Shown piece by piece: positions 6,363-24,087 of a stretch of DNA of 64,000 bases. Source of the DNA: Erwinia persicina (GTDB lineage: Bacteria > Pseudomonadota > Gammaproteobacteria > Enterobacterales > Enterobacteriaceae); assembly GCF_014838825.1 (NCBI RefSeq), contig NZ_JACYMO010000003.1, forward strand, positions 248,001 through 312,000, in the 5' to 3' direction. Each line of letters begins with the position of its first letter. The first letter of the stretch is position 1. The notes beneath the pieces are model-generated. The model made no database searches, had not been told where the DNA came from, and saw nothing but the letters and a program-made list of their open reading frames with translations. Both the position numbers and the translations under genes were made by a program.

Positions 6363-7517
6363 TTACTTCAGGCCGGCGGCGTCACGCAGCAGTGCCGCTT
6401 TGTCGGTTTTTTCCCACGGGAAATGTTCGCGACCAAAGTGACCGTAAGCGGCGGTTTCGCGGTAGATCGGATGCAGCAGATCCAGCATCTGGATCAGGCC
6501 GTAAGGGCGCAGGTCAAAGAACTCGCGCACCAGTAGCGTCAGCTGTTCAGTAGAGATTTTTTCCGTACCGAAGGTTTCCACCATGATGGAGGTCGGTTCA
6601 GCCACACCGATGGCGTAGGAGACCTGAATTTCACAGCGGTCAGCCAGGCCGGCAGCCACGATGTTCTTCGCCACATAGCGTGCCGCATAGGCCGCTGAAC
6701 GGTCGACTTTTGATGGATCTTTACCTGAGAACGCCCCGCCGCCGTGACGGGCCATGCCGCCGTAGGTATCGACGATAATTTTACGTCCGGTCAGGCCGCA
6801 GTCGCCCATCGGGCCGCCGATGACAAAACGACCGGTCGGGTTGATGTGATATTTGGTGCTGGCGTTGATCCACTCTGTCGGCAGAACCGGCTTGATGATC
6901 TCTTCCATCACCGCTTCCTGCAGATCTTTCTGCGAGATATCTTCCGAGTGCTGAGTCGACAGCACCACCGCGTCAATACCGACGATTTTACCGTTGTCGT
7001 ACTGGAAGGTGATCTGGCTTTTCGCATCCGGGCGCAGCCATGGCAGGCTGCCACTTTTACGCACTTCAGCCTGACGCTGTACCAGACGGTGTGCGTAAGT
7101 GATTGGCGCAGGCATCAGCACGTCGGTTTCATTGGTAGCATAGCCAAACATCAGGCCCTGGTCGCCTGCGCCCTGTTCCAGCGGATCGGTGCGGTCAACG
7201 CCCTGATTGATGTCAGGGGACTGCTTGCCGATGGCACTCAGTACGGCGCAGGAATTGGCATCAAAGCCCATATCGGAATGAACATAACCGATATCACGCA
7301 CGGTCTGACGAGTGATCTCTTCGATATCAACCCATGCGCTGGTGGTGATTTCACCGCCGACCAGCACCATACCGGTCTTCACATAGGTTTCACAGGCCAC
7401 ACGCGCTTTCGGATCCTGCTCGAGGATGGCATCGAGCACAGCATCAGAAATCTGGTCGGCGATTTTATCAGGATGTCCTTCTGATACGGACTCGGATGTA
7501 AAAAGGTGTTTAGCCAT
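6363..7517 (-). CDS. metK: S-adenosylmethionine synthetase
   Basis: MetK makes S-adenosylmethionine from ATP and methionine in the cytoplasm. The protein is 384 residues, the same length as in E. coli, and nearly identical across all three domains. Signatures seen are [20 protein letters not shown] at the N-terminus, [12 protein letters not shown] near residue 115 and the catalytic-loop [16 protein letters not shown] near 260. It is divergent from speA, as in E. coli. Tandem Met boxes upstream indicate MetJ repression. Confidence 0.98.
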
Positions 7518-7684: not shown

Positions 7685-8196
7685 ATTTTAGGTTACTCAA
7701 TAAGCGGATTGCCAGCGTTTTTTGCTCAATAAAGTTTTAAGTAATGTAAAGAGTGGCAAATTATCCTGACAGAGAGCCCATTCAGCACATTTAGATTTTG
7801 CATTTACCCCTTCCGGGCTGTATAAAACGCCGCTGCCCGTTGTTGTTCTCTCCCGGTGCAGCAGATGCCTGTCAGTGACGAACCCTTTCGTGCTGGCCTT
7901 CACCCTCAGTCTCAGGTTTTCCATACGCCACTGCGGTGTGTGTGGAGGTGATAGCAGTAATGAACCATGATGTCGTTTCATCCGGTCAGTTACGCCATTC
8001 GGGCGTGTTCAGTTTCCCCTCATTTATCACGACTCCTTGCCCTTTGAGCCGAAGCGATTGCTGCGTTGGTCATAATCCCGACACCTGCGGCGGTTAAGCT
8101 TTCTATACTCACAGCGGTGCTCTCAGATTATCCTGAGAGTGGTCCTTATTACTTCTCTGACCCGTTACCCGGAGTCCGCGACGTGTCTTACAATGT

Positions 8197-8202
8197 TATA
8201 CT
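8197..8202 (+). promoter_or_regulatory. Candidate -10 element of speA
   Basis: TATACT is close to the sigma-70 -10 consensus and lies 126 bases upstream of speA. No good -35 is seen at the right distance, so the call is tentative. The surrounding 7518-8327 region is about 810 bases with no confident gene apart from the Met boxes and a possible YqgB-like reading frame. Confidence 0.35.
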
Positions 8203-8218
8203 TAAGAATCCGCGCTTA

Positions 8219-8335
8219 ATGGCCTTTCAAGCTCCAGGGCTGAAAATACCGGCGGGGAATGGGTTATTGCTGCAGGGGACGCCTGTAGCGGATTGCTGTT
8301 TTGCATCATTACAACTTGAGGTTCGCGATGTCTGA
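8219..8335 (+). CDS. Possible YqgB-like leader peptide upstream of speA
   Basis: A 38-codon frame, ATG 8219 to TGA 8335, overlaps the speA start by eight bases. Its tail contains [19 protein letters not shown], which faintly resembles E. coli YqgB (GLLSQ...VNCFTL), a small acid-linked protein encoded just upstream of speA. The ribosome site is poor and the similarity is short, so this may be a chance frame. If real, its translation would be coupled to speA. Confidence 0.35.
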
Positions 8336-10692: not shown

Positions 10693-12060
10693 TTAGGGTT
10701 TATCAGCCAACTTTTTACTGTCCGGAAACATCTCTGCAATGCGCAATGTATAAACCATGGTGGCATTGGGCGGCACGTTGGGCGGGTAGCCTTTATCGCC
10801 GTATGCCAGATGCGGGGGAACCACCAGGGTCATTGAGCCATGATTATGAAGTTTTGTAATCGCTTCCTTAAATACTGGTGGGAATGCGGCAACCGGCTGG
10901 GACAGCGTCGCTCCGCTGGCTTCCATATCCTGAATAACGGTGCCATCGGTCAGCATCTCTTTTACCACTACGTCAACGCTTGCCCCCTCCACCAGTGGCG
11001 TATCACCGGCATAATCAATGCGGTACCAGAAGCCGCTATCAGCCTGTTTCGCGTTTTTCAGCGTTTTAAAATGTTGCAGATAGTCGGTACCGCTTTTGCT
11101 CTCACGGGTGATGGTCGCTGCACGGGCCTGGGTGACTTCATTCTCGGCTTCGCTCAGGGCGGTATTGAGTACTTCTTCGCTCAGTCGACTTTTACCGGCA
11201 AAGGTATCGACGATGCCGCTCAGGATCAGCTGCTTATCTGTCTCAACCCCCCAGCGCTGGCGCTCCGCCTGCATTTGTAATATCTCTTCCCCTAAGGATA
11301 TCCCTGCGGCGTAATCCTGTTTTGATTTTTCGCTGTTCAGACTTTCAGGCGTTATTTCCGCCAGTTGCTTTGAGCGTGAAGTCTCCAGTGCGGCTTGTAA
11401 CCCGGCAATCTGTTTCGCATGTTCGGCCTGCAGCGCAGATTTTTGCTGTTCCGACTCGCGCAGAGACTGGGATTTCATGTCGGTCAGCTGTAACTTCAGC
11501 TGACTGTTTTGCGCTTGCAGCAGGGTCATCTGTTCACCCAGTTGTTTCGCTCGTTGCAACAACATGGCCTTTTCCTGGTTGGCCTGCTTGATTCTGTTCA
11601 CCGCTTCTGTTTCGTCCGCAGTTCTGCCCAGCGCATGGCGGATATTTTTCGCAAAGAGACTTAATGCCGTCAAATCAACAGGAGCCAATTTTTTATCCGC
11701 CTGCATCGCTTCAAACTGTTTAATCTTTCCTTGCAGAGCGGCAATAGTCGATTTCAGGTCGGCGATGGTCGCCCGTTGCTGCATCAACTCCGTATCTTTT
11801 ATCTTCCATGCTCCCGGCCGGGCCGGGGGGAGTTTACCCGCCGGCGCCACAGCAGATTTTGCAGGAGAGGTCGTGCTATTTTCTGCCCTGCCGGGCCGTT
11901 TTTCTGAATGGTTACCGTCAGGAACCTCACGTTCCTGATATTGTTGGGCAAACTGTAACAGGGCCGGAATGTGATTATCCGGCTCAGCATGCGCCTGAAC
12001 GATCGACAGCGGCAGACTGCTTAATCCCAGTGAAGCGATGATCAATGAAGTCAGCTTCAT
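10693..12060 (-). CDS. Periplasmic coiled-coil protein with C-terminal FKBP domain
   Basis: A 455-residue protein with a signal peptide (about 1-25) and a Pro/Ser-rich low-complexity stretch (about 45-85). A long Gln/Lys/Leu-rich segment (about 90-235) looks like coiled coil. An FKBP N-terminal dimerisation-like region (YAAGISLGEEILQM onward) and a C-terminal FKBP fold (about 350-445) follow. The C-terminus keeps VPPHLAYGDKGYPPNVPPNA. Active-site positions look altered: the usual FDNS is IQDM, and VIPGW reads AFPPVF, so isomerase activity may be weak. It overlaps the upstream lipoprotein gene by four bases. A periplasmic folding or scaffold role for the adjacent surface system is inferred, not shown. 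Confidence 0.8.
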   Translation of the reverse strand: MKLTSLIIASLGLSSLPLSIVQAHAEPDNHIPALLQFAQQYQEREVPDGNHSEKRPGRAENSTTSPAKSAVAPAGKLPPARPGAWKIKDTELMQQRATIADLKSTIAALQGKIKQFEAMQADKKLAPVDLTALSLFAKNIRHALGRTADETEAVNRIKQANQEKAMLLQRAKQLGEQMTLLQAQNSQLKLQLTDMKSQSLRESEQQKSALQAEHAKQIAGLQAALETSRSKQLAEITPESLNSEKSKQDYAAGISLGEEILQMQAERQRWGVETDKQLILSGIVDTFAGKSRLSEEVLNTALSEAENEVTQARAATITRESKSGTDYLQHFKTLKNAKQADSGFWYRIDYAGDTPLVEGASVDVVVKEMLTDGTVIQDMEASGATLSQPVAAFPPVFKEAITKLHNHGSMTLVVPPHLAYGDKGYPPNVPPNATMVYTLRIAEMFPDSKKLADKP

Positions 12061-12449
12061 TTAACCGACTCTCCCTGTGCCGCCAGCGCCACCATCACTG
12101 CCTGATCGACCTGAGAACAGAGTTTGTTGACCTTGTAGCGATACAACGCATCGACGGTATCCCGCGTCTCCGTTTTAATTTTTGCGCGAACGTCGGAATA
12201 TTGTGCGGCACCTTTCATCAGCAGATCAAAGTTCTGTTTATAATTATCAAACTGTTTCTGCTCAACATTGTGCAGAGCGCTCAGGGTCTGCTGGCACTGT
12301 TTCAGGTGCAGAGTTTCGACTTCTGCCGCAGTAGCCGCAGCTTTTTCTTTAACTTGCGTTGTATTTTCCGCGTCTACCCTGTTCTGGCAACCGGATAAAA
12401 CCATTGCCAGAGCCATCAAGTTTAACCCTGTGATCCTGTATAAATTCAT
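12057..12449 (-). CDS. Small lipoprotein of unknown function
   Basis: A 130-residue protein beginning MNLYRITGLNLMALAMVLSGC, a type II signal peptide with lipobox LSGC. The mature part, about 110 residues, is mostly predicted helix, rich in Gln, Lys and Glu, with two cysteines (LKQCQQ and KLCSQ) that could form a disulfide. I recognise no domain. It ends in a four-base overlap with the coiled-coil FKBP gene, so the two products are probably made together and may act together at a membrane. Confidence 0.8.
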   Translation of the reverse strand: MNLYRITGLNLMALAMVLSGCQNRVDAENTTQVKEKAAATAAEVETLHLKQCQQTLSALHNVEQKQFDNYKQNFDLLMKGAAQYSDVRAKIKTETRDTVDALYRYKVNKLCSQVDQAVMVALAAQGESVK

Positions 12450-12510
12450 TATTACCCTATCCTTGTTTAATTGTTTTTCGGCTAATTTATGCGATGTGGA
12501 TGCAGATGAC

Positions 12511-13095
12511 TTACTGCGCCTCGGCCATGGAATTACCGATAAACCATTCGTAAAGCTCAGTGCTTTTTGTCATGTTAAGAATGTTCATTGCGTTACGTTT
12601 ATGGCAGCTGACCGTTTTATTGCTGATATGAAGGATATCCGCAACTTTCTTTGAGCACATACCGCAGGAAAGCAAATAGAGCACCTGTTCCTGGCGCAAG
12701 GTCAGGGCTTTTTCACACATTGCAATACTGTCTTCCGGGTGCTTGTCATAATTATTATTTAAAGCGTCTTCAATGATTTTTTGCAGAATTTTCTGGTCCT
12801 GATGGCGATAAAAAATAAACGGAAAATTTTGTAATGCCAGCCAGTGTTTTTGCTGAGACATAATTAAAATCAGCTTGCCTCTGTACAACGAACCCTTCAT
12901 TAATGCTGAAGGTAAGGGGCACTCTGAAGAGTTAGATGCCCAAAATATCAGATCTGCCAGAGGATAATCTTGCGGAGAAGACAGAATAGCAATCGGTATT
13001 TCCCTCTCGCTGAAATAGCGTTCAATACAGGTTTTCAGCCCCATAGAGAACAGGTTGTTTGAGTCAACAATCAGTATCTTAATTACGCCATCCAT
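12511..13095 (-). CDS. LuxR/FixJ-type transcriptional regulator with degenerate receiver
   Basis: A 194-residue protein. Residues about 130-190 form a LuxR-type helix-turn-helix: LTLRQEQVLYLLSCG, then KKVADILHISNKTVSCHKRN. The N-terminal half resembles a receiver (IKILIVDSNNLFSMG), but the usual phosphoacceptor Asp region reads LIFWASN, so phosphorylation is unlikely. This layout resembles RcsA/FimW-type fimbrial regulators. It sits 20 bp after the PglL-like gene and 61 bp before the lipoprotein on the same strand, so it may regulate its own operon or the divergent fimbrial genes. Confidence 0.85.
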   Translation of the reverse strand: MDGVIKILIVDSNNLFSMGLKTCIERYFSEREIPIAILSSPQDYPLADLIFWASNSSECPLPSALMKGSLYRGKLILIMSQQKHWLALQNFPFIFYRHQDQKILQKIIEDALNNNYDKHPEDSIAMCEKALTLRQEQVLYLLSCGMCSKKVADILHISNKTVSCHKRNAMNILNMTKSTELYEWFIGNSMAEAQ

Positions 13096-13115
13096 TTTTT
13101 ACTGCCTCCTGTTAT

Positions 13116-14954
13116 TTAATGCTTTACCTGAAATCGTGGGTCGTCAGGGAACAGGGTGTCAGCCTCTTCCCGTAATTGTTTAAACTTTTCATCCTGGCGG
13201 AAAGCCAGGATCGACACCAGCGTTCCATAGACATTGCGATCTATTCTGGTCAACAGATAATTTTCTGCCCAGTGTTGATATTCATCTAAAATTTTCTGGT
13301 CGCGGGTTTGATTGAAAAGTAATAACTGGTGCTGCTGCTTATCGTAATGCCAGCGCTGCTGATTAACCCACCGGTCGTAATACATCGCCCGCTCAGCCGG
13401 GCTAATCGCCGAAAACTGGCTGCGCTCAAACTGTGTGAGCGCGAAATTTCCATACAGGCCAAAGAAGAAAGCAACCAGAGCCGCCAGCGAAAGAATCACC
13501 ATAATGCTTTTCACTGCGATAGCGGTGATACGTGCGCAGCAAGAGGCGCGTCTTCCCTGGTTCAAATGACAACCCAACAGGGCTGATAATATTAAAAACA
13601 GCATCCAGTGAGGGGTTGAAGAGATAAAAGGATATTCCGTCTGAGTGTGTAGCAGGATTGGCAGCAAGCTGGCCATTAACCCCAGACTGATAAATCCCCG
13701 TTCCCGGCTAATGCCCCGTGTGCCGTTGTACTCTCGCCATACGCGCCTGAAAACGGTGGCTCCGGCACCAATAAGCACCAGCAGGCCCAGCAGTGCTGGC
13801 ACACCGCCTTCTGCCCACCACAGTAAAATCTCATTATGTGGATGGCGGACAACCCCCAGGCCCAGCGTTGATAGCTGCTGTGCAGCGCGAAAATGCTGGA
13901 AACTGTACTCAAATCCGCCATAGCCCCAGCCAGAAAGCGGCTTCTGGCCGATCATACTGAGTGTTTCCTGCAGCATGATCCGGCGTGCATGGTTGGACTC
14001 GGTATGTGCGACCGGCTGAACCGTGCCGCTGACCTGCAGCATAATGGCCCAGGCGATGCCCGCAGCAATCAGTGTGGCTGCCAGCCAGACGCGCTTTTTC
14101 GCCAGCGGGAAACCCATAATCAGTAACAGCAGACAGGTGATGCCGCCGCCCAGCCAGCCAATCCGCGACTGGAGTAGAACCAGTACCAGGCTGAATAACA
14201 TCAGCAGAGTGGCTGACAACAGATCCCCTGTTTTTGAGCCGATTTTTGCCTTGTTTTCTTCACTCAGTAAAAACCGCATTAAGGTTAAAGCCAGCCCGGT
14301 GGCGATAAAACTCGCCAGCAGATTAACCTGCTGAAAGACACCATAAGGGCGATGGCCGGATATCGGATAATTAAAAATAGCCGGGATCCACTGCGGGGCG
14401 AATAGCTGACATAACGCAATCCCCGCCTGAAGTGCAGTCGCAAAAATGATGGCAGTGACCACCCATCGCCAATAGTCAAAGAACGGACGGTAGCGCATCA
14501 GCGAAATGCAAAATATCACCCCTGCCAGTAATCCAGCCCAGCGGGATAAACCGACTTCCAGCCACGGATCGCGCGTGTAAAACAGCGGAACCGCCAGCAT
14601 ACATACACCCAGTAAAATCAGGCGTGTGGTGGGGCCTGGGTGTGCCATGCTTCCGGCGGAAAGCACGATCCCTGTTATGGCAGTGATTGCCGCCAGCATA
14701 GCCCAGCTCACAATATTCATGGGTAGTTTCAATCCCGTGCCCCCCATATTGGGTAAGTAAACGGGCAGCACGGCGACCAGCCATAAGATGATAAGCATTA
14801 TGGGAAAATAACAGATGAAAGAAGAGAGATGACGCAACGGTTTTTTTACACGTTGGGTTATGCACTTACTGGAAAAATATGTGATTACCATCTTCGTAAG
14901 ACATCCTGCCTCTGTTCTCAACTCACCCTTCCATTGATCACGAAAAGCGCTCAT
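13116..14954 (-). CDS. PglL/Wzy_C-type O-oligosaccharyltransferase-like membrane protein
   Basis: A polytopic protein of up to 612 residues with about a dozen hydrophobic segments and a long C-terminal soluble tail (about 485-612). It has the features that separate PglL O-oligosaccharyltransferases from plain O-antigen ligases: GHRPYGVFQQVNLLASF near residue 207, and the Wzy_C motif VRHPHNEILLWWAEGG in the large periplasmic loop. PglL enzymes transfer lipid-linked glycans to proteins such as pilins. No glycan-synthesis genes lie in the window. The start is uncertain: ATG 14954 has no ribosome site and ATG 14891 is an alternative. It heads a four-gene leftward operon divergent from the fimbrial operon. 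Confidence 0.82.
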   Translation of the reverse strand: MSAFRDQWKGELRTEAGCLTKMVITYFSSKCITQRVKKPLRHLSSFICYFPIMLIILWLVAVLPVYLPNMGGTGLKLPMNIVSWAMLAAITAITGIVLSAGSMAHPGPTTRLILLGVCMLAVPLFYTRDPWLEVGLSRWAGLLAGVIFCISLMRYRPFFDYWRWVVTAIIFATALQAGIALCQLFAPQWIPAIFNYPISGHRPYGVFQQVNLLASFIATGLALTLMRFLLSEENKAKIGSKTGDLLSATLLMLFSLVLVLLQSRIGWLGGGITCLLLLIMGFPLAKKRVWLAATLIAAGIAWAIMLQVSGTVQPVAHTESNHARRIMLQETLSMIGQKPLSGWGYGGFEYSFQHFRAAQQLSTLGLGVVRHPHNEILLWWAEGGVPALLGLLVLIGAGATVFRRVWREYNGTRGISRERGFISLGLMASLLPILLHTQTEYPFISSTPHWMLFLILSALLGCHLNQGRRASCCARITAIAVKSIMVILSLAALVAFFFGLYGNFALTQFERSQFSAISPAERAMYYDRWVNQQRWHYDKQQHQLLLFNQTRDQKILDEYQHWAENYLLTRIDRNVYGTLVSILAFRQDEKFKQLREEADTLFPDDPRFQVKH

Positions 14955-15348
14955 TAGTTAAGCAAAAAAAAGTAATATTTGAATTATTGTATCGCAATAG
15001 GTCTTGTTTGTGGTGTAAAAATTACATATATGAAAAATAACAGCATGTTAGTCTGTGGTGTTGTCATTTTTGTGTGTTTTGCTCTGTTGCTGTTACATTT
15101 TCCCTGGTTGCTCAATTAAATATTGCGAAGTTATTCTTCTATTATATTTTGGCTTTGAATTAGTTGGTTAGTTTGCAATAATGTTTTCCGACGAAATGTG
15201 TTGAGAGTATTCTTATTGGTAATAATTTGATAAGAATTAAACATGTTTTCTCCTTACGGCGTTTAATGCGTTTTTATAGTGTTGATGCAGGAAGTTATTT
15301 CTTCTTCATCGGAAAGCTTTTATACAAAGTCATTTAAAGGAATATAGA
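14955..15348. promoter_or_regulatory. Divergent AT-rich control region of the fimbrial and PglL-like operons
   Basis: A 394-base AT-rich intergenic region between divergent operons. A possible sigma-70 promoter toward the pilin gene is TTGAGA (15201-15206), a 16-base gap and TAATTT (15223-15228). I looked for fimS-like terminal inverted repeats that would signal phase inversion and found none. The composition suggests H-NS control (inference). Confidence 0.5.
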
Positions 15349-15891
15349 ATGAAACTGAACAAAATTGTTCTGGGTTTAACCTTAGCTATGGGTATTACTT
15401 CTTTCGCTCATGCAGCTGACGTGGTTGACCAGGGGCACGGTACTGTAACCTTCACCGGTTCTATCGTGGATGCGCCTTGTTCAATTGACCCGGAAAGTAT
15501 TGATCAGACCGTTAATCTGGGCCAGGTGTCCAATGTAGCATTAACGGCAAATGGTAATAAAGGGATCTCTACTCCGAAGAATTTTGAAATTAAGCTGGAA
15601 AAATGCAACATCGCTGATAAGGGCAAAGCAGTTACCGCGACCTTTACCGGCGCTGAAGGTAACACCGCAGGTATGCTGGGCATGACCGGTACCGCTAAGG
15701 GTGCCAGCATCGCCATGACCGACGGTTCTGGTAAAGTGCTGGAACTGGGCAAAGCCACGACCGCTCAGTCACTGCAGAACGGTAACAACACTCTGTCATT
15801 CGCCGCTTACCTGCAGGGTGACGGTGCTTCAAGCGGTATTGTCCCGGGTGATTTCAAAAGCGTGACCAACTTTACCCTGTCTTACCAGTAA
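15349..15891 (+). CDS. Major fimbrial subunit (type 1/MR/P-like pilin)
   Basis: A 180-residue chaperone-usher pilin with a signal peptide cleaved after SFAHA (about 22). The mature protein starts ADVVDQGHGTVTFTGSIVDAPC and has the pilin Cys pair (DAPCSI and LEKCNI). The C-terminus FTLSYQ has the alternating hydrophobic pattern and penultimate Tyr recognised by the chaperone. It is first in the operon and followed by a terminator, as expected for the most abundant subunit. Ribosome site AAAGGAATATAG precedes ATG 15349. Confidence 0.93.
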   Translation: MKLNKIVLGLTLAMGITSFAHAADVVDQGHGTVTFTGSIVDAPCSIDPESIDQTVNLGQVSNVALTANGNKGISTPKNFEIKLEKCNIADKGKAVTATFTGAEGNTAGMLGMTGTAKGASIAMTDGSGKVLELGKATTAQSLQNGNNTLSFAAYLQGDGASSGIVPGDFKSVTNFTLSYQ

Positions 15892-15905
15892 TTAAGTTAT
15901 TACGC

Positions 15906-15935
15906 ATGCATGTGGTTTATCCACATGCATTTTTT
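15906..15935 (+). terminator. Terminator/attenuator after the major pilin
   Basis: A perfect 10-bp stem, ATGCATGTGG (15906-15915) and CCACATGCAT (15921-15930), with a TTTAT loop and five T residues. Partial read-through would give high major pilin and lower usher, chaperone and minor pilin levels. Confidence 0.88.
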
Positions 15936-15961
15936 ACCCGCAATCAGCGTTGAGCCGAACG

Positions 15962-16501
15962 ATGTGCAGAAAAATAACCGCCTGCATTTTGCTCCAGGCA
16001 ATGAGCCTTGCTGCTGCCAGTTCTGTCGCCGCCAGCCAGCCACAGGGATGGGGCCGTGTCGGGATGTTCGGGGCGATTATTGAAACGGCCTGTGCGATAG
16101 ACACTCTCAGCCGCGATCAGACTATTGATATGGGGCTGTTACCCGTCAGTCAGATTGCCCGAAATGGACAAAGCGTTAACCACCCGTTTTCAATTCAACT
16201 GGTGAACTGCATTTTGAGCAAAAACGATAAGAATTTGCCTCAATGGCAGCATTTTCAGATCACCTTTGACGGTCATCGCGATGACCAGGCTTTTAGCATA
16301 GCAGGTGATGCGCAGGGGATTGCCCTGCAAATAGCTGACAGCAGTGGCAATATTGCCACCCCGGGGAAGCCATTACCGTTGGCCGAACTGACGACAAATA
16401 ATATGTTATTAAATTACTCTCTACGCTTAGTGAGTAATAACCGGTTACTACGCGCCGGGGAATACTATTCCACGGTGAAGTTCAAAATGGATTATTACTA
16501 A
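15962..16501 (+). CDS. Minor fimbrial subunit (PapH/MrpB-like position)
   Basis: A 179-residue pilin-like protein with a signal peptide (ILLQAMSLAAASSVAA). It has a pilin core with Cys pair ETACAID and LVNCILS, and a C-terminal beta strand ending KFKMDYY. It lies between the major pilin and usher, the position of the anchor/terminator pilins PapH and MrpB, which stop fibre growth at the outer membrane. That role is inferred from position. ATG 15962 is preferred over TTG 15950. A 126-bp gap separates it from the usher. Confidence 0.8.
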   Translation: MCRKITACILLQAMSLAAASSVAASQPQGWGRVGMFGAIIETACAIDTLSRDQTIDMGLLPVSQIARNGQSVNHPFSIQLVNCILSKNDKNLPQWQHFQITFDGHRDDQAFSIAGDAQGIALQIADSSGNIATPGKPLPLAELTTNNMLLNYSLRLVSNNRLLRAGEYYSTVKFKMDYY

Positions 16502-16627
16502 TCTGTACCAGTCGTCTAATCAAAGTTAGATTAAGTGCTCTGCTGGATTTTAAATAACTTAGCGCGTATTCATTATTGAAATAATGGAAGTGGCACCTGA
16601 CGGAATATTATAAAAGGTCTGAAGATA

Positions 16628-19147
16628 ATGGCGTTATCTTACTTTAAGGCATTGCCTTCGCGTCCGCGCGTTTTGGGATTAATCATCAGTTATCTTATCA
16701 GCGGGGCGGCCATTGACGTTCATGCTGAGGAGTTTTCTTTTAATACCGACGTACTGGACGTAAACGACCGTAGCAATTTCGATTTAAATCAGTTCTCGCG
16801 CAGCGGCTATATCATGCCGGGCGATTACGTGATGTCTATCCATATTAATAAGCAAGAGCTGCAAGAGCAGCCTGTGACCTATGTTGTTCCGGAAAACGAT
16901 CCGAAAGGAAGTGAACCCTGTATCACCCGCGAGATGGTCGAACAGTTTGGCCTGAAAGACGAGATGAACAGCAAGCTCAGCTGGTGGCATGACCATCAGT
17001 GTCTGTTGCTTAACAGCCTGCCGGGAATGAGCGCCAAAGGTGATTTGGGTGCGGCGGTGCTGAACCTCGGCATCCCGCAGGCGTATCTGGAATACAGCTC
17101 CGGCGACTGGGATCCGCCTTCACGCTGGGATAACGGTATCCCGGGGATCCTGCTGGATTACAACCTGAATGCTCAGACTCAGCGGCAGATGAAAAATGGC
17201 GGCCAGAACGCCAGCCTGAGTGGCAATGGCACCCTGGGGGCGAATATGGGGGCGTGGCGTCTGCGTGCCGACTGGCAGACCCGCTATGACCGTCAGAGTC
17301 AGGGGGTTAAAAACAACTGGGAGTGGAGCCGCTATTACGCTTACCGGGCGATCCCGCGCTGGGGGGCCTCACTGACCGTGGGTGAAAACTACCTCAACTC
17401 GGATATTTTCGACAGCTTCCGCTTTATCGGGGCCAGCCTGGCTAGTGATGACAGCATGTTGCCGCCTAACCTGCGCGGCTATGCGCCCGAAGTGACCGGG
17501 GTGGCGAGAACCAACGCTAAAGTGATTATCAGCCAGCAGGGGCGGGTTATCCAGGAAACCCAGGTCGCGTCCGGGCCATTCCGCATTCAGGATCTGAACG
17601 ATGCGGTTACCGGCCAGCTTGACGTGCGGGTAGAAGAGCAGGATGGCAGCGTACAGGAATTCAAAATTGATACCGCCAGCGTGCCCTATCTGACCCGCCC
17701 TGGCATGGTGCGTTACAAGGTGGCCACCGGGCGTCCGAATGACTGGCAGCACCGCACTAATGGCCCGCTGTTCACTACCGGTGAGTTCTCCTGGGGGATC
17801 AGTAACGGCTGGTCGCTGTACGGTGGCGGCGTAGCGGGTGGGGATTATAACGCCCTGGCCGTGGGGCTGGGCCGTGACCTGTTGATGCTCGGGGCGCTGT
17901 CACTGGATGCCACCCAGTCGCGCGCCCGCCTGCCGGATGAGGATAACACTCTGTCGGGCGGGTCGTATCGTCTGAGCTATTCAAAACGCTTTGATGACTA
18001 CGACAGCCAGGTGACTTTCGCCGGTTATCGCTTCTCGCAGCAGAACTATATGAGCATGAGCGAGTATCTGGATGCGCGAACATACGGTACCCGTTCGCAG
18101 AACAGTAAGGAGATGTACACCATCACCTTCAGCCAGCAACTGCGCCAGCTGGACCTCAGTGCTTATCTGAACTACAGCCATCAGACCTACTGGGATCGCC
18201 CGGCTAACGATCGCTACAACCTGACCCTGTCACGCTATTTCGATATGGGGCGCTTTAAAAACATCAGTCTGTCGCTGACCGGCTATCGCAATAAATATAA
18301 CGGCACTAACGATGACGGCATGTATCTGTCGCTGTCGCTGCCGTGGGGCAGTACCGGGTCGATTGGTTACAGCAACAGCTACAGCCGTAACCAGAATTCG
18401 CATCAGGTGAACTATTTCGATCGTATCGGCAACAGCGATAGCTATCAGATCAGTAGCGGCGTTACTAATAGCGGCGCCAGCGCCAGCGGCAGTTACACCC
18501 ATCAGGGAGATCTTGCCCAGATCAATACCAACGCCAGCTATCAGGAAGGTCGTTACTCCTCCGTCAGTCTGGGGCTGCAGGGCGGCGCCACCGCCACGAT
18601 GAAAGGCGCGGCGCTGCACCGCAGCGGCAGCTCAGGCGGTACCCGCATGATGATTGATACCGACGGTGTGGCGGAGATTCCGCTGCAGGGCTACGGCGCC
18701 AATACCCGCTCGAACCACTTTGGCAAAGCGGTGGTCACCGATGTGGGCAGCTATTACCGCAACCGCATCAGCATCGACCTTAATCATCTGCCGGATAACG
18801 CCGAAGCGGTGAGTTCGGTGGTGCAGGCCACCCTGACCGAAGGGGCGATTGGCTACCGGCGCTTTGAGGTTATTTCCGGCGAGAAAGCGATGGCGGTGAT
18901 CCGCCTGGCGGATGGTTCGGTGCCGCCGTTTGGGGCCACGGTGCTGAACAGCAAGAAGCAGAATGTCGGCATCGTCGGTGACGAAGGCAGCGTTTACCTC
19001 AGCGGTATCAGGCCCGATGAGCGGATGAAGGTGAACTGGGGCGGCAAAGCGCAGTGCCAGTTAGAGCTACCCAAAACGTTAGCCATTAATGACCAGGCCA
19101 ATTTACTGCTTCCCTGCCACGCGCTGAGCGAAGCAAACCCCGAATAG
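16628..19147 (+). CDS. Fimbrial outer-membrane usher (FimD/PapC family)
   Basis: An 839-residue usher, the family's normal size. It has a signal peptide, the N-terminal chaperone-binding domain (FSFNTDVLDVNDRSNFDLNQF), a large beta-barrel region rich in aromatic-terminated strands, and a plug-like segment near APEVTGVARTNAKV. The C-terminal domains end with a Cys pair (AQCQLELP and LLLPCHAL). It secretes and assembles the pilins delivered by the downstream chaperone. No break or frameshift is visible. Confidence 0.96.
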   Translation: MALSYFKALPSRPRVLGLIISYLISGAAIDVHAEEFSFNTDVLDVNDRSNFDLNQFSRSGYIMPGDYVMSIHINKQELQEQPVTYVVPENDPKGSEPCITREMVEQFGLKDEMNSKLSWWHDHQCLLLNSLPGMSAKGDLGAAVLNLGIPQAYLEYSSGDWDPPSRWDNGIPGILLDYNLNAQTQRQMKNGGQNASLSGNGTLGANMGAWRLRADWQTRYDRQSQGVKNNWEWSRYYAYRAIPRWGASLTVGENYLNSDIFDSFRFIGASLASDDSMLPPNLRGYAPEVTGVARTNAKVIISQQGRVIQETQVASGPFRIQDLNDAVTGQLDVRVEEQDGSVQEFKIDTASVPYLTRPGMVRYKVATGRPNDWQHRTNGPLFTTGEFSWGISNGWSLYGGGVAGGDYNALAVGLGRDLLMLGALSLDATQSRARLPDEDNTLSGGSYRLSYSKRFDDYDSQVTFAGYRFSQQNYMSMSEYLDARTYGTRSQNSKEMYTITFSQQLRQLDLSAYLNYSHQTYWDRPANDRYNLTLSRYFDMGRFKNISLSLTGYRNKYNGTNDDGMYLSLSLPWGSTGSIGYSNSYSRNQNSHQVNYFDRIGNSDSYQISSGVTNSGASASGSYTHQGDLAQINTNASYQEGRYSSVSLGLQGGATATMKGAALHRSGSSGGTRMMIDTDGVAEIPLQGYGANTRSNHFGKAVVTDVGSYYRNRISIDLNHLPDNAEAVSSVVQATLTEGAIGYRRFEVISGEKAMAVIRLADGSVPPFGATVLNSKKQNVGIVGDEGSVYLSGIRPDERMKVNWGGKAQCQLELPKTLAINDQANLLLPCHALSEANPE

Positions 19148-19210
19148 TGAGTCGGGACGCGCAGGTCAGCGCGCGGCCCGCTAAAACAGACCTTTAACGA
19201 GACACAGACC

Positions 19211-19963
19211 ATGAAAATGAAATTTAACGCCCCGATACTGACCGGCAGCCTGCTGCTGGCACTAAGCACTCAGTCGGCATTCGCCGCCATCGCCCTCGAT
19301 CGCACCCGGGTGATTTACGACGGCAGCCAGAAATCCATCAGCCTGAACGTCAGTAACGAGAACAAGCAGTTGCCCTATCTGGCCCAGGGCTGGATTGAAG
19401 ATGCCAGTGGTAAAAAAATCTCCAGCCCGCTGACCGTGCTGCCGCCGGTGCAGCGCATTGAGCCGGGTGCAAAAAGTCAGGTGAAAGTGCAGGGACTGCC
19501 GGCAGTCAACGCGCTGCCGCAGGACCGTGAGTCGCTGTTCTACTTCAATATGCGTGAAATTCCGCCGCGCACCGATAAGCCCAACACGCTGCAAATTGCG
19601 CTGCAAACGCGTATCAAGCTGTTCTACCGTCCGGCATCCCTGATGAATACCGCGGGTGCCATGACCACGCCGTGGCAGGAAAAGATCACCCTGCACAAAC
19701 AGGGCGACCGTTACGAGGTGAATAACCCCACCCCTTACTACGTCACCCTGGTGGACGGCAGCAGCACGGTGAAAGGCGAATCAGCCAAAGGTTTTGAACC
19801 GGTGATGGTGGAGCCCAATGGCAAAGCCAGCCTGACCGTCGGCTCCGGCGTGCTGGGCAGCAGCCCGGTACTGACCTATATCAACGATTACGGTGGCCGC
19901 CCGCAGCTGAAGTTCACTTGCAGTGGAAGCAGTTGCAAGGCCGAGGCGGTTAAGGACCGTTAA
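19211..19963 (+). CDS. Periplasmic fimbrial chaperone (PapD/FimC family)
   Basis: A 250-residue PapD-type chaperone with signal peptide ending QSAFA. It has the conserved Arg near the mature N-terminus (ALDRTRVIYDG) and the Lys of the subunit-binding cleft (RIKLFYRP). The signature LFYFNMREIPP is present. The C-terminal extension contains two cysteines (FTCSGSSCKA), which probably form a disulfide, as in some FGS-type chaperones. It follows the usher by 63 bp and should deliver the pilins encoded on both sides. Confidence 0.95.
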   Translation: MKMKFNAPILTGSLLLALSTQSAFAAIALDRTRVIYDGSQKSISLNVSNENKQLPYLAQGWIEDASGKKISSPLTVLPPVQRIEPGAKSQVKVQGLPAVNALPQDRESLFYFNMREIPPRTDKPNTLQIALQTRIKLFYRPASLMNTAGAMTTPWQEKITLHKQGDRYEVNNPTPYYVTLVDGSSTVKGESAKGFEPVMVEPNGKASLTVGSGVLGSSPVLTYINDYGGRPQLKFTCSGSSCKAEAVKDR

Positions 19964-19998
19964 TTCAGAGACGTAACCGTTAATGCCGGGGGGGATGC

Positions 19999-20655
19999 AT
20001 GCAACAGAGAAAACGGATGAAGAACATAGCAGGATTTTTACTGGCCGACTGGCGAGGACTGATCGTGACGCTGATTACCACCTTTGGTGCTTCGGCATTA
20101 ATCATCGCCGGAGTGGTGGTGATAACGCAGGCACGTGCCGCCGATAACTGGAATGTGGATGGTGCTAACGGGGTTTTACAGGTACACGGAGCGCTAACTG
20201 AGAGCGCCTGCCGCCTGGATATGGCTTCCGACCGCCAGGATTTTTCATTAGGGGAGATCGGCACCGGGCGGTTACGTCATCTTGGTGACCAGGGAACCCC
20301 GGTAGAGGTGCAGATAAAATTGCGCGACTGTCTGGCAGAGTCCACCGGCAGCGTCTATGACCATATCGGCAACCGGCTGTGGAGCCGCGAGCAGCCCGTG
20401 GTGACGGTCAGCTTTCTCGGCCCGGCAGATGACAATAACGCGCAGCTGTTGAAAGTGGTCGGTGCCGGAGGGATTGGCCTGCGTATCACCGACCTTCAGG
20501 GGCGTGATGTTCGTCTCGGGAGCAGCGGCGAACCGCTGCTGCTGACGCCGGGTCAGAACCAGCTGAATTATACCATCACCCCCGAGCGCACCCGGGCACC
20601 CTTAAAGGCCGGGGCTTATCAGGCACAGGTTAACTTTGGGCTGAGTTATGACTAG
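19999..20655 (+). CDS. Minor fimbrial subunit with unusually long signal region
   Basis: A 218-residue pilin-like protein. The N-terminus is long for a signal peptide, with about 20 polar residues before the hydrophobic stretch VTLITTFGASALIIAGVVV and a likely cleavage after QARA near 47. The mature region has pilin features: VHGALTESACRLDM, a second Cys in KLRDCLAE, and C-terminal VNFGLSYD. It overlaps the next pilin gene by eight bases. Its role, tip adaptor or anchor, is not clear. Confidence 0.82.
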   Translation: MQQRKRMKNIAGFLLADWRGLIVTLITTFGASALIIAGVVVITQARAADNWNVDGANGVLQVHGALTESACRLDMASDRQDFSLGEIGTGRLRHLGDQGTPVEVQIKLRDCLAESTGSVYDHIGNRLWSREQPVVTVSFLGPADDNNAQLLKVVGAGGIGLRITDLQGRDVRLGSSGEPLLLTPGQNQLNYTITPERTRAPLKAGAYQAQVNFGLSYD

Positions 20656-21145
20656 GTTATTGCGCTGGATTATCAGTTTTTCAGCCAGCATCTGCCCATT
20701 ATTGCTACTCAGTGACTATGCTGCCGCTAACACCAATGTGACGGTGCGAGTGACGGTATTAGCGCCGTTATCCTGCGTGATAAATGGCAATAAGCCGATC
20801 ATGGTTGATTTTGGCAATGCGGTGCAGACGGGAAAGGTGAATGGCAGCAATTATATGCAGACGGTGAATTATGATATGACCTGTGAAAGTACCAAGACCA
20901 ATGCTTTGAAAATGAAAATAAACGCCCAGGCGGCAAGTTTTGATGGTAAGGCGGTTCTCACCAGTAACGGCAATTTAGGCATCGCCTTATATAACGGTAA
21001 TACCCGGCTGGGCGTCAATGAATGGTTTAACTTTACCTGGCCAAATAAACCCGTATTAAAAGCCGTTCCTGTAAAAAACGCAGGCGCTACCCTTAAAAGC
21101 GGAGCATTCTCCGGTGCAGCAGTAATGATGGTGGACTATCAATGA
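20648..21145 (+). CDS. Minor fimbrial subunit, tandem paralogue 1
   Basis: A 165-residue pilin-like protein and the first of four consecutive paralogues. Shared landmarks are an early Cys (PLSCVINGNKP), VDFGNAV, NYMQTVNYDMTC, SFDGKAVLTSN, GVNEWFNFTW and VLKAVPVKNAGATL, ending VDYQ. The family resembles MrpF/StfE-type minor pilins, which link the shaft to the tip. It overlaps the preceding gene by eight bases and the next by four. Confidence 0.85.
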   Translation: MTRLLRWIISFSASICPLLLLSDYAAANTNVTVRVTVLAPLSCVINGNKPIMVDFGNAVQTGKVNGSNYMQTVNYDMTCESTKTNALKMKINAQAASFDGKAVLTSNGNLGIALYNGNTRLGVNEWFNFTWPNKPVLKAVPVKNAGATLKSGAFSGAAVMMVDYQ

Positions 21146-21648
21146 GTGAAAAATATATCAGGCTGCTACAGGCAGGGGCTTTTTGCCAGCTGACCGTCAT
21201 CCTACTCTACAGCGCCCTTTCCCATGCCGCGCCGGGAGATATGACGTTTAAAGGGACACTGATAGACCAACCGGCCTGTACCATCAGCCAGGGGACTGAC
21301 CCTTACGTAAATTTTGGCAAGGATATACTGACGACTAAAATTGACGGGGTGAACTACAAGAAAGAAGCAAACTATACCATTGTCTGTAGTAATAATGTCA
21401 ATAATTCACTGAGGATGCGCCTTGAAGGACAGGGGAGCAGTTTTGACAGCAAAGCGGTGTTGACCAGTAATAAGGATGTTGGCGTGGCAATCTATATAGG
21501 CAGCACCCGGGTTGGTGTCAATGAATGGTTTAATTTTACCTATCCTACAAAGCCGGTAATCAACCTGGTTCCGGTTAAAAAAACAAATGTGATATTAAAA
21601 GGCGGAAGTTTCTCAGGCGCCGTGCAATTTAAGGTGGACTACCAGTGA
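21142..21648 (+). CDS. Minor fimbrial subunit, tandem paralogue 2
   Basis: A 168-residue signal-peptide-bearing pilin with the shared core: VNFGKDI, KIDGVNYKKEANYTIVC, SFDSKAVLTSNKDVGVAI, GVNEWFNFTYPTKPV, and C-terminal FKVDYQ. Its spacing and sequence show it arose by tandem duplication with its neighbours, paralogue 1 being especially close in the NEWFNFT region. Its start ATGA overlaps the preceding stop. Confidence 0.85.
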   Translation: MSEKYIRLLQAGAFCQLTVILLYSALSHAAPGDMTFKGTLIDQPACTISQGTDPYVNFGKDILTTKIDGVNYKKEANYTIVCSNNVNNSLRMRLEGQGSSFDSKAVLTSNKDVGVAIYIGSTRVGVNEWFNFTYPTKPVINLVPVKKTNVILKGGSFSGAVQFKVDYQ

Positions 21649-22151
21649 ATAGCCAAAAAAAAACTGCGTCAGCAGCAGGAATAATCGCTCAGCTCTCTTT
21701 TTTTATCCTGTTCAGTCCGGCAGGGTTCGCCGCAGAACCCAGCCTGCGTTTTGATGGCACGATGATTGAACCGCCGCCCTGCGTGATTAATGGTGGCACG
21801 CCAATCAGCGTTGATTTCGGCAATGCGGTAATGACCACGCGGGTAGACGGGGTTAACTATATCAAGGAAGTCACCTATGGCCTCAGCTGTACCGAAGCGA
21901 CCTCTAAAACCCTGCGTTTGCAGATAAAGGGGAGTGCAGCCAGCTTTGACAGCACCCGGCTGGCAACCGATAAGGGGGATCTGGCGATTGCGCTGACCGC
22001 CAACGGTAAAGCCCTCCCTGTCAATCAGTGGCTTAACTATACCGACCCGTCAAAACCCGTGCTTAAGGCGGTGCCGGTGAAAAAGACCGGCGCCACCCTG
22101 GCCGGGGGCGCTTTTAAAGCCACAGCCACCATGATGATCGACTATCAGTAA
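21645..22151 (+). CDS. Minor fimbrial subunit, tandem paralogue 3
   Basis: A 168-residue pilin with GTG start overlapping the preceding stop (GTGA). The shared core is PPCVINGGTPISVDFGNAV, RVDGVNYIKEVTYGLSC, VNQWLNYTDPSKPVLKAV, PVKKTGATL, ending MIDYQ. It is the most GC-rich of the four copies and closest to paralogue 1 around VDFGNAV and VLKAVPVK. Confidence 0.85.
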   Translation: MNSQKKTASAAGIIAQLSFFILFSPAGFAAEPSLRFDGTMIEPPPCVINGGTPISVDFGNAVMTTRVDGVNYIKEVTYGLSCTEATSKTLRLQIKGSAASFDSTRLATDKGDLAIALTANGKALPVNQWLNYTDPSKPVLKAVPVKKTGATLAGGAFKATATMMIDYQ

Positions 22152-22170
22152 TTGATAAAGACACGGACAG

Positions 22171-22653
22171 ATGCTTAAAAAAATAGTGTGGACACTGCTG
22201 GCGGGGATGTTTATGGCTCATCCCGGCAGGGCAGAGGATAATTTCACCCTGAAAGGGATCTTACTTGAACCGCCAAAATGTGGTTTCAACGGCGGGTTAA
22301 CGGCGCTGGTAAAATTTGGCGAGCGGGTGGGGGTCAATAAAGTAGACGGTAGTAACTACAAACAAAAATTACCTTATCTGATGTATTGCGAAGAGCAGTC
22401 TAAACCCTGGGACATGGCCCTGGTTCTTACCGGTAGCGTCACCAGCTATGACAACGCCGCAATACAGACCAATATTAAGGATCTGGGTATTCGGCTGTTG
22501 ATTAACGGCCAGCCCTTTGCCGTTGATCAACCAGTGCCGATGGTCTTCAGTAAACCGCCGCTGATTGAAGCCGTTCCGGTTAAAAAGCCCGGCAGCACCC
22601 TGAGCACCGGTGCATTTGAGGCAACAGCAACGATAGGGATAAATTATCAGTGA
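22171..22653 (+). CDS. Minor fimbrial subunit, tandem paralogue 4 (divergent)
   Basis: A 160-residue pilin with signal peptide ending GRAED. It keeps PPKCGFNGG, VDGSNYKQKLPYLMYC and the C-terminal EAVPVKKPGSTLSTGAF, but its central NEWFNF-like segment is replaced by VDQPVPMVFSKPP. It is the most divergent of the four and is separated by a 19-bp gap rather than an overlap. Confidence 0.83.
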   Translation: MLKKIVWTLLAGMFMAHPGRAEDNFTLKGILLEPPKCGFNGGLTALVKFGERVGVNKVDGSNYKQKLPYLMYCEEQSKPWDMALVLTGSVTSYDNAAIQTNIKDLGIRLLINGQPFAVDQPVPMVFSKPPLIEAVPVKKPGSTLSTGAFEATATIGINYQ

Positions 22654-23210
22654 TGAACCACCACAGTAAAAGTTATTATCCGCTTACCGGCTCAGTCTGG
22701 AAGATCCTCGGCTTGCTGCCGCTGTTATTCTGCTCGTGGGTATATGCTCAGGATAACGTGATCATGCGTGGAGCACTGGTCACTGAGCCCTGTATTATTG
22801 CGCCGGGTGATGAAAGTATTCAGCTGGATTTTGGCGCAGTGGTGGATAACTACCTTTATATACATCAGCGGACCCTCGGGCAACGGTTTCAAATCAACCT
22901 TACTGACTGCGATCTTACTCTGGGCACCATCGTTAAAGTGGCCTTAAGCGGTACGGAAAACACCCGTTTACCCGGTCTGCTGGCAATCAGCGCCGCCAGC
23001 AAATCTGCGGGGATAGCCATTGGCCTGGAAACACCGGAAGGCAAGCCGTTACCGTTCAATGAGCAGGGCGGGGCGCGCGGTCTTTTTACGGGCAGGAACA
23101 GAATACCACTGAAAGCCTATATCCAGGCGGAACCGCAGGCGATAGCCAATCGCAGTATTCAATTCGGACCGTTTAGCGCGGTAGCGACATTCAGCCTGGA
23201 ATATCAGTAA
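22653..23210 (+). CDS. Minor fimbrial subunit
   Basis: A 185-residue pilin with a signal peptide (KILGLLPLLFCSWVYA), a Cys pair (TEPCIIAPGD and LTDCDL) and C-terminal FSLEYQ. It differs from the four-paralogue family and looks more like a PapE/FimF- or MrpG-type adaptor. ATG 22653 overlaps the preceding stop (TGATG); a GTG three bases earlier is possible. Confidence 0.82.
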   Translation: MNHHSKSYYPLTGSVWKILGLLPLLFCSWVYAQDNVIMRGALVTEPCIIAPGDESIQLDFGAVVDNYLYIHQRTLGQRFQINLTDCDLTLGTIVKVALSGTENTRLPGLLAISAASKSAGIAIGLETPEGKPLPFNEQGGARGLFTGRNRIPLKAYIQAEPQAIANRSIQFGPFSAVATFSLEYQ

Positions 23211-23313
23211 AAGTCTCTCTCTGATGAGGAAACTCTATTCGGTAGAGTTGAATTATCTGTTGGTTAATGAGTCATGCTGATACCCATTTACTTAGGAAGA
23301 AAGTGAATCTATT

Positions 23314-24087
23314 ATGCATTCAAAAATAGTGTTTATTATTTTCGTTCTGTTTTCAATGCAGTCGTATGCGGGGAAGTGGCCAATTGCCACCAGTGTTACT
23401 ATTAAGGAAAAAGGCCGACTTGAACTTAACGCTGAAATGGTGGAGATTGGTGCGGCAGCCGATACTAAATTAGGTGATAATAACTATTGGGGTTATGCAG
23501 GGATTGTAACAAGACAGGGGAGGATGCCTGGTGTGCTTGGGTCGATGATGGGAAGTTGCATAATAATAATCCCGAAATCATTTCAAACTCAAGGTAAAAC
23601 ATATGAGGAAACAATTGCCTATGCATATAGAGCATGTAGTAAAAGAATCCAGGTATATGATGAATATAGCTCTTGTATAGGATATGCTTTATTTAGTCCC
23701 TATCAACTTGATTGGGACCAGGTGTACAGCCCGATTGGTACCTGTTTTCAACTTGCTGATGTTAATCAATGGTGTTCACTCACCACACCAGAGTTGAACA
23801 TCAATCATGGGGTGATATCGGTCAAAGAAGCCGCCGGAAATCGGGCAAAACAGACGATGAATATTAACTGCACTATACCGTCCAAAGTTACCTTAACTCT
23901 GCTTGGTGGTAAGGACACTATCCCCATCGGCGGGGGAACCTCATACCTGACCTCCTCTTTGGGTGTATTAGGTAAAGAGATATCCCTTCAGGCAGGTAAC
24001 AACTCTGTGGATATTATCTCTGAACTTAATAACGTGAAGGAAGGCGAGTGGAACGCCAGTGCGGTGATGATGATGGAACTTAACTAA
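23314..24087 (+). CDS. Two-domain fimbrial tip-adhesin-like protein
   Basis: A 257-residue secreted protein with signal peptide ending QSYAG. The C-terminal half (about 150-257) looks like a pilin domain (WCSLTTPELNINHGVISVKE, INCTIPS, ending MMMELN). The N-terminal half is unrelated to pilins, Tyr/Cys-rich (MGSCIIII, YRACSKR, SSCIGYA, GTCFQLA) and visibly AT-richer than the operon. This domain layout and last position match tip adhesins such as MrpH. The ligand cannot be told from sequence. It is 103 bp after the last pilin and just before a strong terminator. Confidence 0.75.
   Translation: MHSKIVFIIFVLFSMQSYAGKWPIATSVTIKEKGRLELNAEMVEIGAAADTKLGDNNYWGYAGIVTRQGRMPGVLGSMMGSCIIIIPKSFQTQGKTYEETIAYAYRACSKRIQVYDEYSSCIGYALFSPYQLDWDQVYSPIGTCFQLADVNQWCSLTTPELNINHGVISVKEAAGNRAKQTMNINCTIPSKVTLTLLGGKDTIPIGGGTSYLTSSLGVLGKEISLQAGNNSVDIISELNNVKEGEWNASAVMMMELN

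Follow-up and report, generated by a model that had tools for sequence, protein, structure and literature searches.

A PglL-class O-oligosaccharyltransferase proposed to serve its adjoining chaperone-usher fimbria in Erwinia persicina

Introduction

Does an oligosaccharyltransferase encoded beside a chaperone-usher fimbria act on that fimbria, and if so, on which residue? The question is raised by a 64,000-nucleotide stretch of Erwinia persicina DNA, here called the window and part of a genome of 4.8 Mb in 60 contigs, in which a gene for a membrane protein with PglL-type motifs (13116-14954, minus strand) diverges from a chaperone-usher operon (15349-24087, plus strand). The initial annotation connected the two by position alone; the connection is now backed by recurrent linkage, by co-inheritance of enzyme and usher and by a pilin serine that tracks the enzyme. 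We propose that the gene encodes a PglL-class O-oligosaccharyltransferase dedicated to the adjoining fimbria, which would glycosylate the major pilin at Ser161, a reading that we hold, from comparative sequence analysis, with a probability of about 0.78.

The enzyme belongs to the PglL class

The 612-aa product of 13116-14954 exceeds the Pfam gathering score for each of Wzy_C, Wzy_C_2 and PglL_A, and all three domains were matched in 40 of 40 aligned members, the query protein and the Vibrio ones included. Q209-N211, R324, G342/G344, H373, H436 and E440 are invariant in this 40-row alignment and P442 is nearly so. These marker residues were assigned through their spacing, with no alignment against the Neisseria PglL itself, to those reported for PglL in the available part of PMC3643930, namely an Arg, a His and the motifs Q-x-N, G-x-G and H-x3-E-x-P. 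Both PglL-type motifs quoted in the initial annotation are found in the translation, and the profile comparison it had proposed between PglL and WaaL families returned the PglL domains. The AlphaFold model of the protein (predicted local distance difference test, pLDDT, 89.1; predicted template modelling score 0.89) has a single PDB match at E < 0.001, which is WaaL (7TPG, E 3.8e-7, template modelling score by target 0.68).

The genome encodes three PglL-like genes and WzyE (enterobacterial common antigen). It also encodes a separate WaaL-like Wzy_C protein of 386-388 aa in another gene cluster, by which the 13116-14954 product is not the cell's lipopolysaccharide (LPS) ligase; the genes around it resemble, by their sequences, LPS-core genes. 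A WaaL or Wzy identity was rejected on the PglL domains and on this separate protein. These tests place the product in the PglL class, and it would transfer a glycan from undecaprenyl pyrophosphate to a Ser or Thr residue of a protein. Plasmid-borne PglL relatives are also found, with 6 records from Winslowiella, Serratia and Hafnia. One paralogue in the same genome as the window (L005:4684-6420) is nearly the same as the Erwinia persicina PglL at L068:9932-11668, on short branches, a likeness that may reflect recent transfer.

The start of the gene is likely to lie further in than annotated. The ATG at 14954 has no evident ribosome site upstream. A likelier start, 33-63 bp further in, is TTG at 14921, which follows a GGAAGG, or else ATG at 14891. 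The control region shared with the divergent fimbrial operon (14955-15348 as read) is present as initially described, but its length of 394 bp holds only with the ATG at 14954. Because the later start is likelier and residues 1-40 of the model are of low confidence, the region probably measures 427-457 bp.

PglL genes recur beside chaperone-usher fimbriae

Searching 198 genomes from the family at E 1e-10 yielded 36 PglL genes in 29 of them, the window's own copy being counted. On reading the neighbourhoods, an usher, chaperone or pilin gene was found within ~12 kb of 33 of the 36, and an usher in the neighbourhood of 31; the exceptions are L038, L176 (contig end) and L177. The other two of the 33 are PglL paralogues from the same genome as the window, on contigs that begin within a pilin gene. 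The first 417 bases of these contigs, C3 and C10 (L006 and L005), belong to a pil8-like pilin gene, with PglL 4-5 kb on, and the contig starts probably mark where a repeat of two further fimbrial operons has collapsed. Among genomes added later, an usher lies within 13 kb of 27 of 33 PglL genes, the six without one being L217, L219, L220, L226 (on a 5.8-kb contig), L237 and L238.

Among the named PglL loci, the best 80 of 370, an usher lies within 10 kb at 31/38 Enterobacterales, 1/1 Pseudomonas and 0/41 Vibrionaceae loci; at L067, one of the seven Enterobacterales exceptions, the sequence stops 3 kb from PglL. The Vibrio PglLs form a single clade, and the Vibrionaceae are a weak control, since chaperone-usher fimbriae of this type are rare there. 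Gene order varies: PglL may diverge from the operon, lie downstream of it, or sit between the chaperone gene and the pilin genes, as at L078 and L079. Over 45 loci, PglL and usher distances correlate with a Mantel r of 0.77 (highest of 2000 permutations, 0.25), a correlation that partly reflects shared descent of whole genomes. A tree was made of 72 ushers, selected in part for PglL and 50 of them PglL-linked; mapping PglL presence onto it required 14 changes, at least 10 of these on well-supported branches. The co-occurrence anticipated by the initial annotation is thus borne out for the pairing of PglL with fimbriae, which is conserved, but not for all four leftward genes together, which is not general.

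Two loci extend these observations. A PglL with an Stf-type fimbrial operon occurs outside Enterobacterales (L082, Pseudomonas fontis), with a pilin carrying the Ser motif described below, and at L179 a DsbA/ScsC-like thioredoxin (11247-12221) lies between PglL and another type of chaperone-usher operon.

A loop serine of the major pilin tracks the enzyme

A scan of Ser/Thr columns in five fimbrial subunits singled out one position, Ser161 of the major pilin (pilin gene 15349-15891, plus strand; codon 15829-15831), in the context LQGDGA-S161-SGIVPGDF. The aligned set comprised pilins of at least 95 bits to the analysed pilin, non-redundant at 97%, with discovery and new genomes pooled. The unlinked usher loci, 48 in all (21 + 27), were picked by hand, mostly at the higher identities and not exhaustively. 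Below 95 bits fell the linked L082, L185 and L247 (with motif), the linked L179, L216, L229 and L233 (without) and the unlinked L273 (with); pilins at least 97% identical to one already counted were also left out, and the stretches of linked L041, L042, L043, L051, L073, L092, L178 and L183 and unlinked L208 contain no pilA1-type pilin. Ser161 was present in 55/55 PglL-linked and 10/44 unlinked pilins, the top of 173 columns (p 6e-18, in a test chosen after the data were seen and with p values that ignore relatedness). The runner-up is the neighbouring Ala160 (p 4e-7), and other near-invariant residues are conserved about equally in both groups. In the new genomes alone, Ser161 was again the top column (17/17 linked, 3/24 unlinked). 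Greater length or Ser/Thr enrichment of the linked major pilins was tried as an alternative signal and gave no difference (bulk Ser/Thr 0.194 linked, 0.193 unlinked).

Relatedness was taken into account on the usher tree. Of 13 phylogenetically independent pairs, an average of 9.2 have Ser161 following PglL and 0.0 have it opposing (p 0.001-0.016, median 0.004). By their median p, the five Ser/Thr positions used as controls all fall short of significance. A minimal pair is provided by L071 (with PglL) and L193 (without it, and without a significant PglL remnant), whose pilins differ only in one Gly/Ala change and in the loop, GAS-AA in L071 against TKDAE in L193. Across these comparisons, the coupling of Ser161 to the enzyme gene is tight.

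A loop regular expression was derived from the discovery set, where it matched 42/43 linked and 5/20 unlinked pilins, and fixed before testing on newly fetched genomes. It matched 20/24 linked and 10/26 unlinked pilins there (p 0.0016). Without near-copies of discovery pilins, at 97% likeness, the counts were 16/20 and 9/25 (p 0.006). The four linked misses have at most 28% identity (ungapped) to any discovery pilin. As a trait on a 105-row tree, the expression gave independent pairs of 8.5 for and 0.3 against (median p 0.008, range 0.001-0.18).

The AlphaFold model of the major pilin (pLDDT 81) places residue 161 in a turn (158-168 by DSSP) between the last two strands. Linked pilins carry Ala at -1 in 50/55 and, at +1, Ala in 33/55 and Ala, Gly or Ser in 47/55. 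In the available parts of the literature, localised Burkholderia PglL sites are serines with Ala favoured at -1 (PMC8423747) and a Neisseria PglL site motif reads WPAAASAP (PMC4850263). Being Ala-flanked in linked pilins, Ser161 fits these published sites.

Several observations weigh against a dedicated enzyme acting at Ser161. Ser161 is present in two pilins whose genomes yielded no PglL, and among the control positions Ser171 tends to follow PglL too, with 4.8 pairs for and 0.8 against (median p 0.125). The regular expression fixed in advance performs less well than the aligned-column test; with pilins at least 90% like the discovery set removed, it matched 8/12 linked and 9/24 unlinked pilins (p 0.16), and it is absent from linked fimbriae with distant pilins (L179, L216, L229, L233). 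Further, orphan PglLs occur in the Serratia marcescens group and in S. silvae, and some of these may have other substrates.

Proposed mechanism

We hypothesize that the PglL in the inner membrane picks up a ready-made glycan, linked to undecaprenyl pyrophosphate and flipped to the periplasm. Its donor would probably be O-antigen or enterobacterial common antigen units. A 2-acetamido reducing sugar would be supplied by common antigen or by many O antigens. PglLs typically require such a sugar, according to the available part of a 2025 review (PMC12645811). Because the donor would be ready-made, local glycan genes are unneeded; none was noticed among the open reading frames (ORFs) read by eye between 4000 and 32000. 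The glycan would then be moved to Ser161 in the hairpin loop of the pilin, either while this is held by the chaperone or just before, and polymerisation of the modified pilin through the usher would yield a sugar-coated rod. The Ser161 loop would be exposed in the rod, where the glycan may have a biological role.

A broader scheme can be offered tentatively, and we rate it as somewhat doubtful. It envisages, for chaperone-usher pili, a class of cis-encoded O-oligosaccharyltransferases of their own that place sugar on each subunit of the rod at a single loop serine. Gains and losses of the enzyme would have been numerous, and the acceptor serine would have followed them; some lineages would use a coiled-coil FKBP, catalytically dead and anchored by the lipoprotein, to present the pilin to the enzyme.

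Alternative explanations

The enzyme may instead be a general PglL with many periplasmic substrates, the pilin being one of them and the location in a fimbrial operon incidental. The available part of the review describes PglL-class enzymes as general, with tight linkage not widely observed (PMC12645811). PglLs without a fimbria are found in the S. marcescens group (L064, L065, L066, L081, L101) and in S. silvae. The five former, together with the later L217, L219 and L220, all adjoin the same iunH-like gene, and six of these eight also lie beside the same cdh-like gene; G025 still carries a complete fimbrial operon with PglL between these two genes. In addition, unlinked pilins keep Ser161 in 8/15 cases when a PglL is found elsewhere in the genome and in 2/29 when none is found, compared with 55/55 in cis. 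These labels rest on E 1e-10 in the first set and on E 1e-20 with three candidates scored per genome in the later set, where weak PglLs would escape labelling. Incidental placement is hard to reconcile with S. proteamaculans (G170), in which four PglL paralogues each have their own usher operon, and the correlation of PglL and usher distances speaks against it as well. The unlinked pilin of L193, which is also in G170, lacks the site. We therefore consider a general enzyme unlikely.

Ser161 could also track the operon for another reason, for example if a rod variant packed this loop against a partner co-inherited with PglL, the true acceptor being a minor subunit or the tip adhesin. The Ser161 tests are correlational, and Ser and Thr are present in the other subunits. 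A search of four of these (pil2, pil3, pil7, pil8) yielded no Ser/Thr column with an association approaching that of Ser161 (best p 0.007). The site resembles known PglL acceptors and is altered in the otherwise near-identical pilin without PglL, so that we judge this explanation distinctly improbable. The gene might, finally, encode a Wzy polymerase or an O-antigen ligase whose substrate is polysaccharide and not protein, with fimbriae co-carried on islands without a functional tie. This would suit the WaaL-like fold of the model and the public annotation of plasmid relatives (as 'Wzy polymerase domain-containing', 'membrane protein' or 'O-antigen ligase family'), yet it is very improbable given PglL_A and Wzy_C_2 above their cut-offs and the WaaL-like protein in its own LPS-core-like cluster, and it leaves the coupling of pilin serine and enzyme gene unexplained.

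The fimbrial operon and the accessory genes

The reading of a dedicated PglL acting on the major pilin is set in a chaperone-usher context (all plus strand). The major pilin is recognised by NCBIfam fimbrial models and has a FimA fold, its AlphaFold model aligning to E. coli FimA 5nkt with Z 20.1 over 144 residues (root mean square deviation 1.7); the Pfam FimA sequence model scores below its cut-off. It is followed by a second pilin (15950-16501, Fimbrial PF00419), an Stf-type usher (16628-19147, NF011812, 1158 bits, above cut-off) and a chaperone nearest to the StfD model, with a score below the StfD cut-off (19211-19963). Six more ORFs encode pilin-like subunits (19999-20655, 20648-21145, 21142-21648, 21645-22151, 22171-22653 and 22650-23210), the first two of which were scanned and match PF00419, and the operon ends with a tip adhesin-like protein (23314-24087), which has weak matches to PapG_C, passing the cut-off, and to MrpH_C, falling short of it. 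The locus has no close DNA match in complete E. coli genomes.

On the minus strand, PglL is accompanied by a LuxR-type (GerE) regulator (12511-13095, 194 aa), a small lipoprotein (12057-12449, 130 aa) and a periplasmic FKBP (10693-12060, 455 aa). ORF coordinates and Pfam agree with the initial description of four leftward genes with small gaps or overlaps, the FKBP and lipoprotein genes overlapping by 4 bp and the remaining gaps being 61 and 20 bp. The regulator has a GerE helix-turn-helix (E 3.7e-13) and no Pfam family in its N-terminal half; FimZ, CsgD and EcpR models match only its DNA-binding part, far below cut-off. This regulator probably governs how the divergent units are expressed.

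The lipoprotein carries a lipobox Cys21, and Cys52 and Cys111 are also conserved in its homologues (n=11 aligned); profile searches, Pfam included, returned no significant match for the family. The FKBP has FKBP_N and FKBP_C domains and a long N-terminal part predicted, by eye, to be a coiled coil. It scores 108 bits against the 215-bit cut-off of the NCBI equivalog PRK10902 and departs from FkpA/Mip-type proteins in its active site, at what we take to be the equivalents of Tyr26, Phe36, Asp37, Ile56 and Trp59 (FKBP12 numbering): where FkpA of the same genome reads NYKG, GTEFDNS and VIPGW, the locus FKBP reads VVVKE, GTVIQDM and FPPVF. An alignment of 11 members largely retains these substitutions, and in it D378, an Asp that lies one residue further along, is invariant, which makes a shifted active site possible. 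The FKBPs beside PglL in fimbrial loci L178 and L183 differ, keeping a GTVFD motif.

An FKBP lies beside 12/36 PglL genes, and its presence follows PglL in 3.0 independent pairs with 0 against, the pairs being few. Lipoprotein-FKBP pairs without PglL occur at L190, L191 and L192. Two of these are in the same genome as the window, a lipoprotein-FKBP pair (L190:5909-7815) and a LuxR-lipoprotein-FKBP set with an FKBP of 902 aa (L191:3288-7131), and neither stretch has a fimbria or PglL; in other genomes, FKBP matches fall in ORFs of up to 1834 aa. The initial annotation had pictured a glycosylation module with a dedicated folding factor. While the pairing of a PglL-type enzyme with a fimbria is well supported, the folding factor is doubtful, because the FKBP is found at 12/36 loci, its lipoprotein pairs occur without PglL and its pocket is degenerate. 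Lipoprotein and FKBP form an optional periplasmic accessory, perhaps a holdase or scaffold for pilins and not a proline isomerase, although a chaperone-like or scaffolding role for the FKBP is a guess.

Reverse transcriptase (RT) genes (RVT_1, E 1e-15 to 1e-21), often decayed, follow the last pilin of several PglL-linked operons. Genes are found at L039:18114-19094, L043:13632-14609 and L183:12675-13847, and fragments at L005, L006, L067, L068, L071 and L074. The L043 gene precedes an adhesin-like gene and the L183 gene adjoins FKBP-PglL. No template or variable repeats of the diversity-generating retroelement kind were found near the RTs in six loci. At L073, the 180-bp 3' end of an RT (6963-7142) is repeated at 89% identity ~1 kb on (8100-8279), beyond an adhesin-like gene, as if adhesin and RT tail formed a cassette.

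Comparison with known systems

Chaperone-usher fimbriae are among the best-studied adhesion fibres, and as PglL-class substrates they are not described in the literature searched. No report on PglL-type enzymes and chaperone-usher fimbriae was found among open-licence PMC papers, mostly judged without their full text. One predicted acceptor residue and a dedicated enzyme make the question directly testable by mass spectrometry. If true, the proposal would change the view of how the fimbriae of Serratia, Yersinia, Erwinia, Rahnella and relatives appear to hosts and phages, and would provide a new set of pilin-specific enzymes for glycobiology.

Stf, MR/P-type and the present fimbriae have usher, chaperone and subunits in common, but here an oligosaccharyltransferase is part of the locus. 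Stf and MR/P fimbriae are not known to come with such an enzyme. For Yersinia PglLs, the context 'pilin' in Table 1 of Schulz 2013 (PMC3643930) denotes a type IV pilin homologue, and neither 'fimbria' nor 'usher' appears in the available part of its text. By comparison, a chaperone-usher operon adjoins PglL at the Y. frederiksenii and Y. alsatica loci found here (L111, L118). Neither word appears in the available part of the 2025 review (PMC12645811).

PglS/ComP, TfpO/PilO and TfpM resemble the present system in that the enzyme gene adjoins its one pilin substrate, which in the present case is a proposed one. These enzymes act on type IV pilins or on proteins resembling pilins, according to the available part of PMC12645811, whereas the fibre here is assembled by chaperone and usher. 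By domain content the enzyme is not a TfpO/TfpM member, as those proteins, whose target is the C terminus of type IV pilins, lack PglL_A and Wzy_C_2 and it has both. The general PglLs of Neisseria and Burkholderia share with it Wzy_C, PglL_A and Wzy_C_2, the Q-x-N, P-x2-G-x-G and H-x3-E-x-P spacings and an Ala-flanked Ser acceptor, which is predicted here. The locus enzyme differs from them in being tied to a chaperone-usher operon, with a predicted acceptor that is a chaperone-usher pilin instead of a type IV pilin or a general periplasmic protein. The enzyme itself belongs to the known PglL class, and the new part is its proposed dedicated chaperone-usher substrate.

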